This document shows, piece after piece, positions 21,198-48,375 of a stretch of DNA of 64,000 nt; the stretch's first letter is position 1, and every line of letters begins with the position of its first letter. Position numbers and translations under genes: made by a program. The DNA comes from Salinirussus salinus (GTDB lineage: Archaea > Halobacteriota > Halobacteria > Halobacteriales > Haloarculaceae): assembly GCF_009831455.1 (NCBI RefSeq), contig NZ_WOWO01000001.1, forward strand, positions 434,001-498,000, written 5' to 3'. Below the pieces are notes generated by a model that ran no database searches, was not told the DNA's origin, and saw only the letters and a list, made by a program, of their open reading frames with translations.

Positions 21198-21446
21198 ATG
21201 AACGGCGGTTCAGAGACACCAGTCGATACCGTCGACACCACCGACGGGGAGATCGCGCCGGATGCGGAACGGAGCATCTCCGCTCCGGTCACGCAGGAAG
21301 GGAACCAGCGGAGCATCTCCTACGAGGAGTTCGACCCCAAGGGGACGCTCGCGCTCATCCTCGCCTACCTCGTCGTCCTCGGCGTGATGTGGGTGTTCAT
21401 GTACTTCGTCGAGTTTCTCGGCAACGAGCTGGTGGTCGTGGGGTGA
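21198..21446 (+). CDS. cbaD: ba3-type oxidase small subunit CbaD
   Basis: An 82-residue single-helix protein with a polar N-terminus and the hydrophobic segment TLALILAYLVVLGVMWVFMYF. It is the first gene of the oxidase operon, six bases before subunit II. The arrangement small subunit-II-I-small subunit equals the cbaDBAC operon described for Natronomonas pharaonis cytochrome ba3. The single helix is comparable to subunit IIa of Thermus ba3 oxidase, which replaces a missing helix of subunit II. The name rests on position and shape. Confidence 0.8.
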   Translation: MNGGSETPVDTVDTTDGEIAPDAERSISAPVTQEGNQRSISYEEFDPKGTLALILAYLVVLGVMWVFMYFVEFLGNELVVVG

Positions 21447-21452
21447 CCACAC

Positions 21453-22001
21453 ATGCACATCCACACCTACGAGAAACTCTGGCTCGGGCTGTCGCTGCTT
21501 CTGATCACGGGCTTTGTCGCGACCATTACCTACGGTGCCCTGGGGGCGGGTGTCGAGATGGTCGACGACAGCGGGGAGACCGTCGACCCGGACGCGCTCG
21601 GGGAGCACCCCGACTTCGCTGACCCCGGCGTCGAGCAGGTCGGCCCCAACGAGTACGACGTCTACGTCGTCGCCCACCGATTTTACTTCGAACCCGGCTC
21701 CTCGACCCAGGGCTTTGCCCCGATCACGGTGCCGGCAAACAGCACGGTCAACTTCTACATCACCTCCGCCGACGTCGTCCACGGCTTCGGCGTGGCCGGC
21801 ACGAACGCGAACACGATGGTGATCCCGGGAGAGGTGAGCGAGCTGACCGTCGAGGTCGGCGAGCCCGCCGAGTACGGCATCGTCTGCAACGAGTACTGCG
21901 GTAGCGGCCACCACACCATGGAAGGACTGATGCAGGTCGTCCCGCCCGAGGAGTACAACGGCACGGGCAGTCAGACTGAGCGTCTGGGGGGTGACAGCTG
22001 A
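21453..22001 (+). CDS. cbaB: ba3-type cytochrome c oxidase subunit II (CuA)
   Basis: A 182-residue subunit with one N-terminal helix (about 9-31) and an outward cupredoxin domain. All CuA ligands are present: His110, Cys145, Glu147 (backbone), Cys149, His153 and Met156, in VVHGFGVAG and CNEYCGSGHHTM. It receives electrons from a blue-copper carrier such as halocyanin and passes them to subunit I. Its stop overlaps the ATG of subunit I by one base. Confidence 0.95.
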   Translation: MHIHTYEKLWLGLSLLLITGFVATITYGALGAGVEMVDDSGETVDPDALGEHPDFADPGVEQVGPNEYDVYVVAHRFYFEPGSSTQGFAPITVPANSTVNFYITSADVVHGFGVAGTNANTMVIPGEVSELTVEVGEPAEYGIVCNEYCGSGHHTMEGLMQVVPPEEYNGTGSQTERLGGDS

Positions 22002-23770
22002 TGGCGACCGAAGAGGGGACGCCGACGTTCGCGACCAGGTATCCCGAGGAGGCGTCGGTCGTCCGGCGGGCCTTCCTCGTGGCCTTCGTGGCGCTCGGGA
22101 TCGGCGCGCTGGCGGGGATCATCCAGGCGCTTCACCGCACGAACATCCTCCGGCTCATCCCCTCGGCGGACTACTACACGGTGCTGACGCTGCACGGCGT
22201 GTTGCTCGTGATCGTCTTCACGATCTTCTTTCTGGTCGGGGTCTTCCAGTGGGCGATCACCCGCAGTCTCGACCGCTCGCCCCCGAACATCACCTTCACG
22301 AAGACCTGGCTGGCCCTGATGTCGCTGGGGTCGCTTCTGACCGGGGCGGCGATCATCTCCGGCGTGATCAGCGAGGTCGACGCCAGCGCGGACGTGCTCT
22401 TTACCTTCTACGCGCCGCTGCAGGCCCACCCGCTGTTCTACGCGGGGCTCGCGGTGTTCCTCGTCGGGACGTGGCTCGCCGGGGTGGACTGGTTCCGCAC
22501 CTGGCTCGGCTGGCGCCGCGAGCACCCCGACGAGCGGATCCCGCTGCAGGCCTTTATGGTGCTGACGACGATGATCATGTGGTATATCGCCACGATCGGC
22601 GTGGCCGTCTCGGTGCTGTTTTTCCTGTTGCCGTGGTCGCTCGGGTTCATCGACCAGGTCAACCCGCTTCTCACCCGGACGCTGTTCTGGTTTTTCGGCC
22701 ACCCGGTCGTCTACTTCTGGCTGCTGCCGGCCTACCTGCTGTGGTACACGGTGATGCCGAAGATCGCCGGCGGCCGGCTGTTCAGCGACCCGCTCGCGCG
22801 CGTGGTCTTCGTCCTCTTCGTCCTCCTGTCGACGCCGGTGGGGATCCACCACCAGTACATGGACCCCGGGATCGCACAGGGGTTCAAGTTCATCGCGATG
22901 ACCAACACGATGTTCCTGCTGTTGCCCAGCCTGCTGACGGCCTTTACCGTCGTCGCCAGCATCGAGCACGGCGCCCGCCAGCGCGGCGGGACCGGCCTGC
23001 TGGGCTGGCTGCGGGCGCTCCCGTGGCGCGACCCCGCATTCACCGGGATGGCGCTCGCGGGGCTGATGTTCGCCGCCGGCGGCTTCTCCGGGATGGTCAA
23101 CGCCGGCATGAACATCAACTACCTCGTCCACAACACGCTGTGGGTGCCCGGCCACTTCCACCTCACCGTCGGGACCGCCGTCGCGCTCACGTTCATGGCC
23201 GGCACCTACTGGCTGTGGCCACAGCTGACCAACCGCCGGCTCTACTCCCGGCCGATCGCCCTCGCGCAGGTCGTGCTCTGGTTCGGCGGGATGGCGCTGA
23301 TGTCAAACGCCATGCACGTCGCCGGCCTGTTCGGGATCCCCCGGCGGACCGCCGAGCCCCAGTACCAGGGCTTCGAGTTCGCGACGACCTTCGGTGGCGT
23401 CAGCGAGCTGAACATCCAGCTCGCCCTCGGGGGTACGCTGCTGTTCGTCTCGACGCTGCTGTTCCTGTCGAACCTGGCGCTCTCGCTGGCCCAGCCGACC
23501 CGCTCCGGGCTCGGCCAGCGGCTGCCGGCCGCGCTGTCCGGCCCCGAGGACAGCCCCCGGGTGCTCGACAACCTCGCGCTCTGGTCGGGGATCGCGGTCG
23601 TGCTGGTCGTGCTGGCCTACGCGCTCCCGCTCGGGTCGATCATCGCCGACAGCGGCCTGCTCGGCCCCGGCGGGGCGGCGTATCCCGCGGCGCTCACCCC
23701 CGACTCGCTCGCCGGGCTCCAGGCGGCTGTCGCCGACCCCGTGGTGCGCGCACTGGAGGTGGTCGCATGA
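22001..23770 (+). CDS. cbaA: ba3-type heme-copper oxidase subunit I
   Basis: A 589-residue catalytic subunit with about 13 membrane helices. Heme and CuB ligands are recognisable: LHGVLL for low-spin heme, FGHPVVYFWLLPAY with the CuB His, GIHHQYMD for the His-His pair, and VHNTLWVPGHFHL with the high-spin and low-spin heme His. The classic K- and D-channel motifs of A-type oxidases are not evident, as in B-type (ba3) enzymes. It reduces O2 to water with proton pumping. It overlaps both neighbouring genes by one to four bases. Confidence 0.95.
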   Translation: MATEEGTPTFATRYPEEASVVRRAFLVAFVALGIGALAGIIQALHRTNILRLIPSADYYTVLTLHGVLLVIVFTIFFLVGVFQWAITRSLDRSPPNITFTKTWLALMSLGSLLTGAAIISGVISEVDASADVLFTFYAPLQAHPLFYAGLAVFLVGTWLAGVDWFRTWLGWRREHPDERIPLQAFMVLTTMIMWYIATIGVAVSVLFFLLPWSLGFIDQVNPLLTRTLFWFFGHPVVYFWLLPAYLLWYTVMPKIAGGRLFSDPLARVVFVLFVLLSTPVGIHHQYMDPGIAQGFKFIAMTNTMFLLLPSLLTAFTVVASIEHGARQRGGTGLLGWLRALPWRDPAFTGMALAGLMFAAGGFSGMVNAGMNINYLVHNTLWVPGHFHLTVGTAVALTFMAGTYWLWPQLTNRRLYSRPIALAQVVLWFGGMALMSNAMHVAGLFGIPRRTAEPQYQGFEFATTFGGVSELNIQLALGGTLLFVSTLLFLSNLALSLAQPTRSGLGQRLPAALSGPEDSPRVLDNLALWSGIAVVLVVLAYALPLGSIIADSGLLGPGGAAYPAALTPDSLAGLQAAVADPVVRALEVVA

Positions 23771-28657: not shown

Positions 28658-29377
28658 TCACCGCGTGTAGCGTCTCCGCCGGTCGGACTGCTCGCGCTGC
28701 CGGCGGCGCAGGAGGACGAGAAACAGCAGCGGCGAAAGTAACCCGAGCACGATCATCGCAGCCAGGGTCTGGAGCGCGGTGTCGTTCGCGGAGTTGGGCG
28801 GGCCGGAATCGCCGCCACCACCCTCGCCGCCGTTACCGCCGCCGCCCTCGCCACCGCTACCGCCACCGTCGCCGCCGCCCTCGCCACTGCCACCGCCGCC
28901 GTCCTCGCCGCCGGTGTCGGGCAGGTCGCCGACGACGACGACCCCTTTCATCCCGAGTCCGCGGTGGGGTCGACAGAAGTACTTCACCACGCCCGCGGAG
29001 TCGAAGGTTCGCTCGTAGGTGAACCCCTCCTCCGAGGTGAGGTCGCTCTCGAAGTTCCCGGCCTCGTCGACGACGTTGTGCTGCTGGCCCTCGCCGGTCC
29101 ACTCCCAGCGGACCGTCGTCCCGGGGTCGACCTGGACGGCGGCGGGACCGAAGCCGTAGGCGCCGCCGTTGGCCTCGACGCCGACCTCAACGGTCGCCTC
29201 CTCCTGTCCGGTCGCGTCGACGACCGTCCCGTCGTAGTTGCCCACGTCCGAGAGCCAGCCGTCGAAGTCGGTCTGTGCGGCGGCCGGTCCGGCCGCCGAG
29301 GCGACGGCGACCGCCGCTGTCGCCCCGCCGGCGGCTCTCAGCAACCCCCGCCGCGTGTACGCGCTCTCTCCGTCCAT
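28658..29377 (-). CDS. Halocyanin (blue copper protein) with C-terminal membrane anchor
   Basis: A 239-residue type-1 copper protein. It has a Tat signal TRRGLLRAAGG (from residue 8) ending near AAAQ, then a cupredoxin domain (36-150) with ligands His100, Cys135, His138 and Met143 in FCRPHRGLGM. A roughly 45-residue Gly-rich spacer and a C-terminal helix (204-223) followed by Arg-rich residues anchor it. Likely electron carrier to the ba3 oxidase or NirK. ATG 29377 was chosen from the TATA-like tttatg at about 29401-29407; ATG 29401 lies within that box. It reads divergently from nirK. Confidence 0.92.
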   Translation of the reverse strand: MDGESAYTRRGLLRAAGGATAAVAVASAAGPAAAQTDFDGWLSDVGNYDGTVVDATGQEEATVEVGVEANGGAYGFGPAAVQVDPGTTVRWEWTGEGQQHNVVDEAGNFESDLTSEEGFTYERTFDSAGVVKYFCRPHRGLGMKGVVVVGDLPDTGGEDGGGGSGEGGGDGGGSGGEGGGGNGGEGGGGDSGPPNSANDTALQTLAAMIVLGLLSPLLFLVLLRRRQREQSDRRRRYTR

Positions 29378-29476
29378 ACCTGTGTCTGCCACGGTCGCCA
29401 CTCATAAAACCGATTATTCGTCACGGGCTCGCAGACCCGCCCCGCCCCCAGTGTTGCTCCGGGGGTCCTTCGACGC

Positions 29477-29568: not shown

Positions 29569-30687
29569 ATGTTCGATACTTCGCGGCGGCGGATGCTCCA
29601 GGCGCTCGGGATCGGGGGCGTGGCGTCGGTCGCCGGCTGTGCCGGCGCCCCGCAGACTGAGAGTGACCCGCCGTCGACTGGCTCCGCCCCGGTCCAGACG
29701 GACACGGGCACGCCTGCGCCCAAACAGACCGACGTGGACTCGGTCGCGGCGGACCCCGCGGACCTGCCAGACCCGGTCGACCGGGACAGCACGGCGACGG
29801 TCGAGGTCGACCTCGAGGTCCGGGAGGTGACCGCCGAGGTCGAGCCCGGCGTCACGTTCGACTACATGACCTTCAACGGGACCGTGCCCGGCCCGATGGT
29901 CCGCGTGCGGCGCGGTGACACCGTCGAACTCACCATCCGCAACCCCGAGGGCAACGGGATGCCCCACAACGTCGACTTCCACGCCGCCTACGGGACCGGC
30001 GGGGGTGCGGAGGCGACCGGCGTCAACCCCGGCGAGCAGAACAAGCTGAAGTTCCAGGCCCGCTACCCCGGCGCGTTCATCTACCACTGTGCGGTCCCGA
30101 ACCTCGACTACCACATCTCCGCAGGGATGTTCGGGATGATCCTCGTCGAGCCCGAGGACGGGATGCCCGAGGTCGACCGGGAGTTCTACCTCGGCCAGCA
30201 CGAGCTCTACACGGACAAGGCGACCGGCGAGGAGGGCCACCACGGCTTCGACTTCCAGGCGATGGCCGCCGAGGAGCCGACCTACGTCCTCCTGAACGGC
30301 GAAAAGTACGCCTACGCCGCGGCCCGGTACGGCCCGCTCGAGGCCGAAGTCGGCGAGACCGTCCGGGTGTTCCTGGTCGACGGGGGGCCGAACGTCACCT
30401 CGAATTTCCACCCGATCGGAAACGTCTGGACGAAGGCCTGGCCGAACGGCGCGGTCGCGGGCGACCCCGACCGGTTCGCCCAGACGATGAAGGTCGCGCC
30501 CGGTAGCTGTTTCGTCGGCGACATGGAGCTTCCGGTGACCGAGCGGATCAAGCTGGTCGACCACGCGCTCAGCCGCGTGGCCAGGAAGGGACTGCTCGCC
30601 GAGATCGACGTCGCCGGGCCGGAAAACGAAGAGATCTACGACCCCGACTTCGGCGGCTCGCGCCACGACGACCCGATGTACAGCTAA
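29569..30687 (+). CDS. nirK: Copper-containing nitrite reductase (NO-forming)
   Basis: A 372-residue two-domain cupredoxin enzyme reducing nitrite to nitric oxide. Tat motif SRRRML and lipobox VAGC (Cys24) make it an exported, lipid-anchored protein. Type-1 copper ligands are His133, Cys174, His182 and Met187; type-2 ligands are His138, His173 and His332; the catalytic pair is Asp136 and His281. All are present, so it should be active. The electron donor is probably the halocyanin read divergently 191 bp away. No NO or N2O reductase gene lies in the window. Confidence 0.95.
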   Translation: MFDTSRRRMLQALGIGGVASVAGCAGAPQTESDPPSTGSAPVQTDTGTPAPKQTDVDSVAADPADLPDPVDRDSTATVEVDLEVREVTAEVEPGVTFDYMTFNGTVPGPMVRVRRGDTVELTIRNPEGNGMPHNVDFHAAYGTGGGAEATGVNPGEQNKLKFQARYPGAFIYHCAVPNLDYHISAGMFGMILVEPEDGMPEVDREFYLGQHELYTDKATGEEGHHGFDFQAMAAEEPTYVLLNGEKYAYAAARYGPLEAEVGETVRVFLVDGGPNVTSNFHPIGNVWTKAWPNGAVAGDPDRFAQTMKVAPGSCFVGDMELPVTERIKLVDHALSRVARKGLLAEIDVAGPENEEIYDPDFGGSRHDDPMYS

Positions 30688-35298: not shown

Positions 35299-35348
35299 CG
35301 GCACGAGGAAGTGACAAAATTAAAGACGGCGCTCTCGGTTGGCGTGCC

Positions 35349-36947
35349 ATGGACAGGCGCCGCCGTCGCCTCATTAGCGGTCTCGCAGGGAGTGTCGGGC
35401 TATTCGCCGGTTGTTCGAGCGCCTCCGACCTCGTTGGACCGGATGCTACGGGGGGGACCACGACACGAGGTTCTGCCGACGCCCCCGTGGCTATCGACTG
35501 GCTTCCTGCTCCCGACTCGGTAACGACGGCGACCGACCCGCCAGCCTTCACCGTCGCCCCACGACGCGTTGCCGCCGTCGATGACGAACTCGAGAATCAG
35601 GTGTACCGTTTCTTCGAAACGCTGGTCAGGTACAAACTCCCTGACATCGACTTCCGCCGGCTTGATGCTGTAGCCAGCGGTCCGCAAACGACTGCTGTGG
35701 TCGGGCCATACGACAGAGACAACGCTGTCGACGACGACGACCCGGCCCCGGACCCGCCAGGCGGGGCCGACTGGTTCATCAGCGGCGACCCGACGAACAG
35801 CCGGACAGAGCTGACCGGCCTCCGCGACTCGACCGTCGTCGTCGCCGAACCGAGCCTTTCGGCGGACCGGGCGACTGTCGGCGAACGCTCCATAGCCGCT
35901 GGCACCAGTGAGGCCAACGGCTACCGCGACCAGCCCGGGATGGACGAGGTCCTCACCGGGCTCGCGGACGCCGACTTCCGGCGGCTCCAGCCGGTCGGGT
36001 CGACGGTGGACCGGCGGCCGGAGCGGGGCCTGTTTCCCGACGAACTGGCGTACGGCCTCGGTCTCCGGTTCGACGGGGAATCGACTACCGTGACGGTCGT
36101 CAGGGTGTTCGACTCGACGCCCCCCGAACAGGACCTGGAGGCGTGGCTGGCGGCCAACGATTCGCCAGGCCTCGACGGCCCGGAGTTACTGGACCAACGC
36201 GCGGTGTTCAGCAGAGAACTACCGACCGACGAGGTGACGTTGCGAACGCTTGCCACGCCGGTCAGGCGTATCGAGACGGCTGACCCCGCCGTTGTCCCGT
36301 CAGACTCGAAAACGACGGTCTACACGACCGCTAGCCAGTTCTTTTACAAGCCGTTCTACCAGGACGGTCTGACGGTCCCGTCCGACCGCCCGGTGGAGTT
36401 CGTCCTCCGGTCGGAGGATGTCGTCCATGGATTCGAGATAACCGGGACGCCAGTTGACCGGACACTCGTTCCCGGCGAGCGCGCACGCGTGTCGCTCTCC
36501 CTGGATGCAGGGGAGTACACCGTCCTGACGAGCCGCTACAACGGCGAAGGCACGGACGCGACGAGGGCTCGGTTGACCGTCGAGGGGGTCGGACAGCGGG
36601 GTCGTCTCGAGGAGTGGCTGGCGGAGACAAACAACTTCGACGGCAGCGTCACCGACGCAACCGATCGAGACGAAGTCACCGTTCGTGTCGGTGCGGAGGG
36701 TAATGGCGGTCCGTTCGCGTTCGACCCGCCCGCGGTCCGCGTCGAGTCCGGCACGACCGTGCGCTGGGAGTGGTCGAGTGAGGGAGCCCAGCACAGTGTC
36801 ACTCACACCGACGAGGCGTTCGGGACTGGCGTCAAGGAAGCCCCTTTCAGCTACGAGCACGTCTTCGACGAAGCCGGGATGTACCGGTACTACTGTCTAC
36901 CACACAGGGGGCTGGGGATGAAAGGCGCTATCCTCGTCGGCGGATAG
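35349..36947 (+). CDS. Lipoprotein fusing a ligand-less CoxII-like domain to halocyanin
   Basis: A 532-residue exported protein. It has a Tat-like MDRRRRRLISGL start and lipobox Cys22. Residues 45-310 are an unrecognised domain (VYRFFETLVRYKLPDIDFR...). Residues 320-412 resemble subunit II of heme-copper oxidases (SEDVVHGFEITG, LVPGE) but the CuA Cys/Cys/His/Met are replaced by Thr394, Asn398, Thr402 and nearby residues. Residues 418-532 are a full halocyanin domain with His482, Cys516, His519 and Met524. GAA/CGA-type codons are more frequent and GC lower than in glyA, hinting at transfer. The TATA-like aaaattaaag lies about 27 bases before ATG 35349. Confidence 0.8.
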   Translation: MDRRRRRLISGLAGSVGLFAGCSSASDLVGPDATGGTTTRGSADAPVAIDWLPAPDSVTTATDPPAFTVAPRRVAAVDDELENQVYRFFETLVRYKLPDIDFRRLDAVASGPQTTAVVGPYDRDNAVDDDDPAPDPPGGADWFISGDPTNSRTELTGLRDSTVVVAEPSLSADRATVGERSIAAGTSEANGYRDQPGMDEVLTGLADADFRRLQPVGSTVDRRPERGLFPDELAYGLGLRFDGESTTVTVVRVFDSTPPEQDLEAWLAANDSPGLDGPELLDQRAVFSRELPTDEVTLRTLATPVRRIETADPAVVPSDSKTTVYTTASQFFYKPFYQDGLTVPSDRPVEFVLRSEDVVHGFEITGTPVDRTLVPGERARVSLSLDAGEYTVLTSRYNGEGTDATRARLTVEGVGQRGRLEEWLAETNNFDGSVTDATDRDEVTVRVGAEGNGGPFAFDPPAVRVESGTTVRWEWSSEGAQHSVTHTDEAFGTGVKEAPFSYEHVFDEAGMYRYYCLPHRGLGMKGAILVGG

Positions 36948-36989
36948 GTCCAGCAACGCCTTTGTGACCCCGTAACCCGTGTCCCTGGT

Positions 36990-37893: not shown

Positions 37894-40134
37894 TCAGCGC
37901 GCCGTCCCGGCCGGGTCGTCGAACAGGAGCGCGAACACGCGGCGCTGGCCCTCCCGGAGGTGTCGGGTGACCGTCGGCTGCGAGACCCCGAGCAGCTCGG
38001 CCAGCTCCGAACCCGTCGTCTCGCGGGGCGACTCGAAGAAGCCACTCTCGTATGCGGTTCTCAGGACCTCGAGCTGGCGGTCGGTCAGCGCGGCGTCGAC
38101 GTCGGTCCCGAAGCTACGGCGCGTCCGGGCCGGGCCGTCGACCTCCTGGCGCGCGAGTAGCTCCGTCCCGGGGTAGTGGTCGCTCACCCGGGCGACAAAC
38201 TCCCGGATATCCCGCTCCTGTGGGAGTCTGACGGTCGCCGTGGTCTCCCCGGGGTGAGCGACCACGTCCTCGGGGATGGCGCCACAGGAGAGGAGTGTCG
38301 CCGCCACGCTCCCCTCGGCGACGGTCACCCGGAACACGTACTCCGCCCCACTGTTCACCTCGGTCAGTGACTCGACGGCGACGGAGCCGGCCTCGAGGGC
38401 GTGAAGCTCCTCGACCGGCGGGTCGGTCAGCGCGAAGACGAGCCGGGTCGACCCAGTCGCATCCGGCGTCAGCTCGTAGTAGCTCACCGGCTCGCCGGCC
38501 GTCGCCGCCACGAGATTCATGAACCCCTCCCCGCCCGGGATCCGCAACTCCAGCTCCGTGCTCCGGTCGGCGAGGACACCCTGCCGGGCCTCGGCGACGT
38601 TGATCCCGTAGCCGACGGTCTCGCCGAGGTTCACGAGCGTCTCCCCCATCTCGGCGAAGGCGCCGGGGTCGGTCGCGTAGACAGCCAACGCGCCGTACTG
38701 GACCCCGCGGTCGGTCAGCGGGACCGCACACGCCGACTGGAACCCCCGCTCGGCCGCCGCCCGCGCCCACTCGCTGCGCTGGAGGTGGTCGGTCACGTCG
38801 ACGCAGGTCGCTTCCCCGCCTGCCGCCCGCGCGGCCGGTTCACCGACCCCCCCGTTCAGCTCAAGCGGAGCGTCGTCGAGGTAGCCGGCGCCGTCACCGG
38901 CCCAGGCCCGGGGTTCGACCCGGTCGCCGTCGGGCGGGACCGAGCCGATCCAGGCGAACGCGAAGGCCTCGTCGGTCAGCCGCCGGCAGACCATCTCCTC
39001 CAGTTCGGCGCGCGAGCGGGCGCGGACGAGAACCCGGTTCACCTCCCGGACGAGCCGGCCGGCCACCTCGACCCGCTCCAGACGGCTCGCCTGCCGGGAG
39101 AGTGTCGCCTCCCGCTCGCGCGCGGCCCGCTCGTGTGCCACCCGCTCCAGCGCACTCGTCGCGGTCGAGGCGAGCAGGTCCACCAGCGTCCGCTCGCGGG
39201 TGTTGAAGGTACCAGGGGTCCGCGAGGCAGCGACGAGGACGCCGTGCTCGTTGAGCGGCACGAAGACGGCGCTCCGGGCGTCGGTGTCGGGGTTCGCGAG
39301 CCGGTCGGCCTCCGCGAGGTAGTCGAACGTCCGGGTCTCGCCGGTCGCGTAGGCCTGCCAGACCTGAGCGTCGCCGTTCCCCGGACCGAACGTCAGCGTG
39401 TCGCCGTAAAACTCCCTGAGGAGGGCGGTGACGGTCGCCGGTTCGAGGACGTTCTTTTCGGGGTCGAACCGGAAGACGCCGACGGCCTCGACGTCCAGCA
39501 CGTCCGTCGCGACTTCGACCGCCGTCTCGTAGACTGTCCCGGCGGTCTCCGCACTTTCGAGCCGCTCGGCGGCCGCCTGCAGGAACTCGAGCGTTCGCTC
39601 GCGTTTGCGGTGCTGGAGCGAGCCGATGGTCCGTCCGACCGCCGCCCCGAGCCCGTCGAGCGCGTCCCGCTCGTGGACTCCGTAGGCGTCCCGGCGGGCG
39701 TCGCCGACGACCAGGAGGCGGTAGACTTCGCCCCGGTGGGCGACGGGGACGAACGCGAGGGTTCCGACCCCGCGTTCCTCGGCGAGACTCCGCCAGGCTG
39801 TGGGGGAGTTCTCCCCGCGGGGGTCGGCGACCTGCGTGCGCTCGCGCCCGACCGCGAGCAGGCCGGGGCTGGGACCCTCGGTGGGCACGAGGCTCGTGGC
39901 AGTCTCCTCGTCGACCCCCGCCGCCGTCCGGAACGTGAACTCGCGGTCGTCGTAGCAGAAGACGGCCACGAATTCGACGGGTCCGGCGCTTCCGACGGTG
40001 TCACGGACCGTCCGGTCGACTCCTGCCCGACTCGTCGCGTCCACGAGCCGTTCCTCGACCCGCTCTGCGAGCAACTCCAGGCGCTCGACCGACGAGACCG
40101 TCCGGTCGCCGGCGTCGCCTACGTCTGCTGGCAT
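37894..40134 (-). CDS. GAF-domain Bat-type (bacterio-opsin activator) transcription regulator
   Basis: A 746-residue cytosolic regulator. About three GAF-like sensor domains (roughly 15-175, 190-340, 350-505) are followed by a BAT domain (about 510-670, ELRIPGGEGFMN and VSYYELTPD) and a C-terminal HTH_10 (LTDRQLEVLRTAYESGFFE, LGVSQPTVTRHLREG). Some Cys/His in the GAF regions could bind a cofactor. Bat proteins activate genes under low oxygen or light in haloarchaea. The target is unknown; nearby nirK, oxidase and cupredoxin genes are candidates. No PAS or histidine-kinase domain is present. Confidence 0.9.
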   Translation of the reverse strand: MPADVGDAGDRTVSSVERLELLAERVEERLVDATSRAGVDRTVRDTVGSAGPVEFVAVFCYDDREFTFRTAAGVDEETATSLVPTEGPSPGLLAVGRERTQVADPRGENSPTAWRSLAEERGVGTLAFVPVAHRGEVYRLLVVGDARRDAYGVHERDALDGLGAAVGRTIGSLQHRKRERTLEFLQAAAERLESAETAGTVYETAVEVATDVLDVEAVGVFRFDPEKNVLEPATVTALLREFYGDTLTFGPGNGDAQVWQAYATGETRTFDYLAEADRLANPDTDARSAVFVPLNEHGVLVAASRTPGTFNTRERTLVDLLASTATSALERVAHERAAREREATLSRQASRLERVEVAGRLVREVNRVLVRARSRAELEEMVCRRLTDEAFAFAWIGSVPPDGDRVEPRAWAGDGAGYLDDAPLELNGGVGEPAARAAGGEATCVDVTDHLQRSEWARAAAERGFQSACAVPLTDRGVQYGALAVYATDPGAFAEMGETLVNLGETVGYGINVAEARQGVLADRSTELELRIPGGEGFMNLVAATAGEPVSYYELTPDATGSTRLVFALTDPPVEELHALEAGSVAVESLTEVNSGAEYVFRVTVAEGSVAATLLSCGAIPEDVVAHPGETTATVRLPQERDIREFVARVSDHYPGTELLARQEVDGPARTRRSFGTDVDAALTDRQLEVLRTAYESGFFESPRETTGSELAELLGVSQPTVTRHLREGQRRVFALLFDDPAGTAR

Positions 40135-47295: not shown

Positions 47296-48375
47296 ATGGA
47301 AACCAACAGACGTGCAGTCCTGAAGGCCAGCGGCATCGCTGCGCTGATGGGTTCGACCGGACTCGCGGGCTGTTCCGGCGGGCTCCTCGGCGGCGGCAAC
47401 GGTTCCGCTGACTCCGGCCCCGCGACCTGGCAGTACGACCCGTCGGTGCTCGGCGAGTCGCCGAACGTCTTCTTCGGGTCGATGGACTACGCCACTATCT
47501 ACGAGAACCGCGAGTTCTTCCCCGAGGACACGCGCAACAGCCTCGAACAGACCGACTCCAGCACGCCGGTCAATCCCGAGGACATCGACTTCCTGTCCGG
47601 CGTCGGCGGCGGGAGCGTCTCGATGATGGACAACTCCGGGAGCGGCGCCGGCTCGGTCGCGGTCGTCGGTTCCTTCGACCGGGACGCGATCGCCGACGAG
47701 ATCGAGAGCCAGCCGGACTCGAGCCAGGTCGGCGAGTACGAGGGGTACACCCTCTACGAGAGCACCACGGTGGGCCAGCAGATGGGTCCGGACGCCTCGG
47801 GGTCGGCCACGGTCGGTGTGGGCGACGGGGCGCTCGTCGCCGGCTTCGCCTTCGCCTCGGGCACGTCGACGAGTTCCTCCGGCCGGGATGCCGTCGAGAC
47901 GGCCATCGACTCCAGCAACGGCAACGCCGACCGCCTGCGCGGGAACAACGAGTACGCCACGACCGTCGCGGACAACGTCGGGGACGCGACCGCCCGCTTC
48001 GGCGGGGTCGGCGACCCCGACCTGATCGACCAGTACTCCGCCATGGCGGACTCCCAGACCCGGACCTACGTCGACGGGATGCGCGCCGGCGGGTTCGGGA
48101 TGGCGCTCGAGGGCGAGACGACCACGTTCACCGTCGTCATCGCCTACGAGAGCTCTCAGGCCGCCGGTGACACCGGGCTGACCGACCTCGTCGAGGGGTT
48201 CGGCCCGCAGTTCGAGCAGGAGGAAGGGATCAACAGCGTCGGCGCGGAGCAAAACGACAGCGCGGTCGTCATCACGGTCGAGGGCGACACCCAGACCCTG
48301 CTCCAGCAGGCCAACCAGACCGGCGGGATGGGTGGCGGGGTCGCGTCGATGTCCGCACCCGCGGGCGGCTACTGA
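47296..48375 (+). CDS. Exported lipoprotein of unknown function
   Basis: A 359-residue protein with a Tat-type start (METNRRAVLKASGIAAL) and lipobox LAGC (Cys27), then a Gly/Ser linker and a long extracellular domain. It is low in Cys and rich in Gly/Ser/Asp/Asn, ending GGMGGGVASM. The repeated-looking pair GSVAVVGSFDRDAIADEIES and FGMALEGETTTFTVVIAYE suggests two similar sub-domains. It resembles abundant haloarchaeal surface lipoproteins; no ligand is evident. Confidence 0.8.
   Translation: METNRRAVLKASGIAALMGSTGLAGCSGGLLGGGNGSADSGPATWQYDPSVLGESPNVFFGSMDYATIYENREFFPEDTRNSLEQTDSSTPVNPEDIDFLSGVGGGSVSMMDNSGSGAGSVAVVGSFDRDAIADEIESQPDSSQVGEYEGYTLYESTTVGQQMGPDASGSATVGVGDGALVAGFAFASGTSTSSSGRDAVETAIDSSNGNADRLRGNNEYATTVADNVGDATARFGGVGDPDLIDQYSAMADSQTRTYVDGMRAGGFGMALEGETTTFTVVIAYESSQAAGDTGLTDLVEGFGPQFEQEEGINSVGAEQNDSAVVITVEGDTQTLLQQANQTGGMGGGVASMSAPAGGY

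Follow-up and report, generated by a model that had tools for sequence, protein, structure and literature searches.

The gene at 35349-36947 of the 64,000-nucleotide stretch of Salinirussus salinus DNA analysed in this study (the window) encodes a protein in which an N-terminal domain from a haloarchaeal lipoprotein family, a cupredoxin domain of the oxidase-subunit-II (CoxII) type lacking its CuA site, and a complete halocyanin domain follow one another. The product is most probably (probability roughly 0.55) a lipid-anchored, one-electron halocyanin carrier on a metal-free stalk of two domains. An earlier sequence-only reading had proposed an exported fusion of a CuA-less oxidase-subunit-II domain with a complete halocyanin, and the open reading frame, the predicted signals and the three assigned domains all bear out that description.

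The G+C contents at the three codon positions of the open reading frame (0.69/0.52/0.78) follow the coding order expected in this genome, and the frame of 532 codons is intact, including the signal, the lipobox and all four copper ligands of the last domain. The twin-arginine signal and lipobox predict that the protein is exported by the Tat pathway as a lipoprotein. The TATA-like element AAAATTAAAG is possibly the gene's own promoter, in which case the transcript would be leaderless. Coordinates of all features of the gene are collected in Table 1.

Table 1. Features of the three-domain gene and its surroundings, in window coordinates
Feature	Position	Strand	Basis or remark
TATA-like box AAAATTAAAG, candidate promoter	35316..35325	+	sequence; centre ~28 nt before ATG
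Three-domain gene, predicted Tat-lipoprotein, 532 aa	35349..36947	+	ORF and codon-position G+C pattern
Predicted twin-Arg signal and lipobox ending at Cys22 (RRRRRLISGLAGSVGLFAGC)	35349..35414	+	sequence
N-terminal domain, residues 45-304, haloarchaeal lipoprotein family, TP0453-like predicted fold	35481..36260	+	
CuA-less CoxII-type cupredoxin, residues 310-412	36276..36584	+	sequence and predicted fold
H360, sole retained CuA ligand position	36426..36428	+	
Degenerate CuA loop TSRYNGEGTDAT, residues 394-405	36528..36563	+	
Halocyanin domain, residues 417-532	36597..36944	+	TIGR03102, 133 bits
Type-1 Cu ligand H482	36792..36794	+	
Type-1 Cu ligands C516, H519, M524	36894..36920	+	
Stretch absent from sister species	35299..36989	+	G145: glyA, then 45 bp, then small lipoprotein gene

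The score of the halocyanin domain with TIGR03102 (133 bits) exceeds the curated cut-off of 93.8 bits, and the four blue-copper ligands that the sequence-only reading had placed in the last domain were found at H482, C516, H519 and M524. The C-terminal domain, its ligands and the Tat and lipid-anchoring signals are those of halocyanins such as that of N. pharaonis, from which the S. salinus product differs by two metal-free domains added between the anchor and the copper domain. No near copy of this halocyanin domain was found among the other halocyanins of the same genome.

Both sequence comparison and fold prediction related the middle domain to oxidase subunit II. In a phmmer comparison of the whole protein with PDB chains, the CuA domain of the T. 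thermophilus ba3 oxidase matched residues 310-402 (E 3.6e-9 to 1.2e-8), and a profile built from 23 subunit IIs of haloarchaea, with the query left out, gave 67.2 bits on the query, whereas none of 400 shuffled domain sequences exceeded 8 bits; the score with the curated CoxB model (26.5 bits) is below its cut-off of 147.7. The likeness to subunit II that had been seen by eye in residues 320-412 is therefore upheld by phmmer and the leave-one-out profile independently of any such motif. Structure prediction and superposition agreed, the AlphaFold2 model being a beta-sandwich of the cupredoxin fold with a mean pLDDT of 83.7, although its input was an alignment with true subunit IIs, which partly imposes the fold and leaves the sequence tests independent. 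Foldseek ranked the ba3 CuA domain first (E 7e-8 to 2e-6, rmsd ~2.1), and in VIA-align the CuA domains of ba3 oxidase and nitrous oxide reductase tied, with Z scores of 12-14. All models were built domain by domain and carry no relative domain positions. Judged by the phmmer and profile results, residues 310-412 share ancestry with the CuA domain found in subunit II of ba3 oxidases.

The CbaB loop CNEYCGSGHHTM aligns with TSRYNGEGTDAT, such that C-N-E-Y-C-G-S-G-H-H-T-M has become T-S-R-Y-N-G-E-G-T-D-A-T, and H360 is the only histidine, cysteine or methionine in residues 305-412. Neither a CuA nor a type-1 site can form in this domain, because H360 alone is left; the claims that the CuA motif had been replaced and that one histidine at a ligand position had been kept were thus both correct. 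Nineteen of the 40 strongly conserved subunit-II columns are retained, the losses being the TNxNTM loop beside the CuA ligands, which reads PVDRT here, and all ligands but H360, while the hydrophobic ligand loop of subunit II has been replaced by polar and charged residues. Since both of these loops have changed, the end at which electrons enter a CuA domain has not been kept. The conserved core comprises F331, P335, P344, F351, S355, D357, V358, G361, F362, T367, P375, G376 and Y390, and its retention alongside altered ligand-end loops fits preservation of the beta-sandwich after loss of the metal function.

The middle domain thus shares its sequence family, predicted fold and H360 with subunit II of ba3-type oxidases (CbaB; the T. 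thermophilus CuA domain), but it has none of the other CuA ligands, has no transmembrane helix of its own and is encoded outside an oxidase operon. CyoA and other quinol-oxidase subunit IIs likewise have the CoxII fold minus CuA; they are oxidase subunits, whereas the S. salinus product is a free lipoprotein with a halocyanin.

The CoxII-type domain was searched for in 146 Haloarculaceae genomes and the order-wide searches covered ~390 sampled genomes. Many subunit IIs were matched in the Haloarculaceae, and C-x3-C was kept by all other 35 subunit-II-like sequences examined, being missing only in the S. salinus product. The sequence-only reading had looked to a cysteine loss common to all homologues, and no such pattern emerged, because the collections searched hold no homologue with the three-domain architecture in which the loss could be shared. 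An order-wide search (~390 genomes, CoxII plus halocyanin query) yielded no second open reading frame with both domains, and those read among the frames that seemingly spanned the two (query 53-232) were halocyanins with a signal and linker. Searches of the genome collection and of viral contigs gave no orthologue of the whole protein or of its first 419 residues, and a tblastn search of plasmids returned subunit IIs, where annotated, and no full-length relative. A Rhizobium match with 65% coverage was an ordinary CuA-bearing subunit II (CQEFC), and a match in L088 that lacked the CuA motif looked like a chance reading-frame match and was set aside. Among the genomes searched, the three-domain architecture is a single instance.

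The gene has glyA on one side and a small lipoprotein gene on the other and is not part of an oxidase or nir operon. The sister species G145, with a 92% identical glyA, lacks the 1.65-kb gene: there, 45 bp separate glyA from the small lipoprotein gene, and folD comes next; the order glyA-small lipoprotein-folD also occurs in many Haloarculaceae. Because the site is empty in G145, a recent, species-specific event is indicated, and the gene may most simply be regarded as a gain in S. salinus; its insertion point is not flanked by obvious target-site repeats. A gene for a Bat-like regulator (37894-40134, - strand) separates the small lipoprotein gene from folD and is missing there in G145. In Haloarchaeobius, divergent tandem halocyanin genes are found a few kb from glyA (L208 9081-9980, L215 8472-9887). 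The third-position G+C of the three-domain gene (0.78) is the lowest among 14 window genes measured (0.82-0.96 in the others), and the gene could be foreign or weakly constrained. Its CoxII-type domain is 34% identical to the CbaB of the window, compared with up to 42% to other subunit IIs, and sits on a very long tree branch; duplication of the window's CbaB is not supported as its origin, given this low identity, the lack of a close placement and a branch too long to place.

A rather unlikely explanation of these observations is that the protein is a partly decaying chimaera, recently assembled or acquired, that has yet to settle into a function, with the CoxII part as passive debris between two functional modules. 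The empty site in G145 within a gene order conserved elsewhere, the failure to find a full-length relative, the single instance, the lowest third-position G+C and the very long CoxII-domain branch would all be consistent with such an origin, whereas the intact frame with signal, lipobox and four copper ligands, and a preserved CoxII core with change confined to the metal end, argue against decay.

The sequence-only reading had further proposed a docking module that places an electron carrier next to an oxidase or NirK. In such a scheme the CuA-less CoxII domain would bind the surface of oxidase subunit I or NirK and park the halocyanin beside it. The window does contain the ba3 genes (21198-23770, with cbaD at 21198-21446, cbaB from 21453 and cbaA from 22001), another halocyanin gene (28658-29401, - strand) and nirK (29569-30687), all 5-15 kb upstream of the three-domain gene and not adjoining it. 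This proximity and the real CoxII ancestry of residues 310-412 favour docking, as does the likely role of halocyanin as donor of ba3 oxidase, the two being linked by known fusions (PMC8305020, PMC3128077). The halocyanins known to be linked to ba3 oxidase use fusion to the CbaD helix (PMC8305020, PMC3128077). Such halocyanin-CbaD fusions (OE_4073R of Hbt. salinarum; double-halocyanin forms such as L019) resemble the S. salinus product in joining a halocyanin to a part derived from ba3 oxidase, but their partner is a C-terminal CbaD/IIa helix, whereas here it is a soluble CoxII domain N-terminal of the halocyanin. The S. salinus protein ends with the halocyanin domain and carries no C-terminal CbaD helix, cbaD being a separate gene. 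Double-halocyanin proteins encoded directly upstream of subunit II were also observed (L013, L015, L019, L024, L026, L027, L034, L037, L112, L136), and most of them have a C-terminal CbaD-like helix.

A docking role at an oxidase or NirK is conceivable, but we consider it unlikely, because the ligand end is the part of the CoxII domain that changed most and because halocyanin and ba3 oxidase are tied elsewhere through the CbaD fusion. Neither the CuA loop nor the adjacent TNxNTM loop is conserved, the gene was inserted in the glyA-folD region, which holds no oxidase operon, NirK is not known to have a CoxII partner, the CoxII-type domain is no nearer the window's CbaB than other subunit IIs, and the fusion is a single instance. 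Of the fused-module proposal, the exported protein in which a CuA-less CoxII cupredoxin is joined with a complete halocyanin therefore stands, and the placement beside an oxidase or NirK is not supported, given the diverged loops, the absence of an oxidase or nir operon, the lack of a homologue sharing the architecture and the CbaD device used elsewhere.

The N-terminal 265 residues had been described as matching nothing. No Pfam or NCBIfam model was found for residues 45-304, and a 47-row profile from which the query had been left out gave 90.5 bits on the query, the best of 400 shuffles reaching ~7 bits. A six-row profile matched 152 of the 392 genomes of the order, ~40% of those sampled, and a phylum-wide search added a few genomes outside it; stand-alone distant relatives have ~300 residues and Tat-lipoprotein signals. 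On the evidence of these profiles residues 45-304 belong to a large, widespread, unnamed haloarchaeal lipoprotein family, contrary to the earlier description. A paralogue of the domain is encoded in the same window (47296-48375, + strand; third-position G+C 0.933). Among the family members examined in the order- and phylum-wide profile searches, no other case of fusion to a CoxII or halocyanin domain was found.

A fold search, which had been proposed for residues 45-310 and was run on residues 45-304, also produced a match. With the predicted model (mean pLDDT 88.8, pTM 0.87), the top PDB match was TP0453 (Foldseek E 4.6e-7; VIA Z 10.7 over 213/250 residues, the next unrelated chain having Z 5.3). 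TP0453 is a membrane-inserting, membrane-associated lipoprotein and, by proposal, a lipid carrier (PMC5421087). The N-terminal domain resembles it in predicted fold and lipoprotein nature, but TP0453 is a spirochete outer-membrane protein without a detectable sequence relation to the domain: identity is 7-13%, and a sequence profile search of the PDB set gave no match at E up to 1. For these two reasons, no function was transferred from TP0453.

It is improbable that the N-terminal domain binds a lipid, quinone or other ligand with which the halocyanin would exchange electrons or which it would sense; the fold match, the membrane insertion of TP0453 and its proposed lipid-carrier role (PMC5421087) point in this direction, but a fold shared at 7-13% identity does not imply a shared function and the profile search of the PDB set detected no sequence relation. 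Very improbable is the more specific idea that the membrane-proximal N-terminal domain is a lipid- or quinone-binding module and that, with no bc1 complex involved, electrons pass through the fusion from a membrane ligand held there to the copper site, in a geometry fixed by the metal-less CoxII domain.

In Haloarcula relatives, 15 tandem halocyanin open reading frames were found in which the first domain has no copper cysteine (mostly YVSEPHRDDGM) and the second is intact, and these dead-live tandems form a single clade with 98% bootstrap. Such lipoproteins were seen at L109, L111, L114, L116, L120, L121, L123, L125, L126, L127, L129, L131, L132 and L134; a relative in L118 retains the C-H-M motif. 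Like the S. salinus product, the Haloarcula-type tandems (L109, L116, L127 and others) are lipoproteins with a metal-less cupredoxin right before a live halocyanin, but their dead domain arose separately and is a halocyanin in which Cys has changed to Ser, whereas that of S. salinus is of the CoxII type. An origin of the S. salinus protein from these tandems is not supported, as its halocyanin domain does not group within the live2 clade. A cupredoxin without metal preceding a live halocyanin therefore arose at least two times, from different parents, which makes a non-redox partner domain in front of a halocyanin a recurring design.

In the preferred model, the carrier on a metal-free stalk, the protein would be exported by the Tat system and then lipid-anchored at the membrane, and its C-terminal type-1 copper domain would be loaded with copper and transfer one electron at a time. 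The N-terminal and CoxII-type domains, both metal-free, would hold the halocyanin away from the membrane, the latter probably acting as a structural spacer or positioning module rather than as a redox centre. Counting against this model, there is no orthologue by which selection on the fusion could be seen, and the third-position G+C of the gene is the lowest measured.

In conclusion, the protein provides a clear case of a CuA domain of the subunit-II type that is used outside an oxidase after loss of its copper site. Its existence beside the unrelated tandems of Haloarcula relatives suggests that the acquisition of a metal-less cupredoxin partner by halocyanins is a repeated event. In addition, a widespread, unnamed family of haloarchaeal lipoproteins has been tied by predicted structure to a solved fold, that of TP0453, which gives a structural lead for the family.
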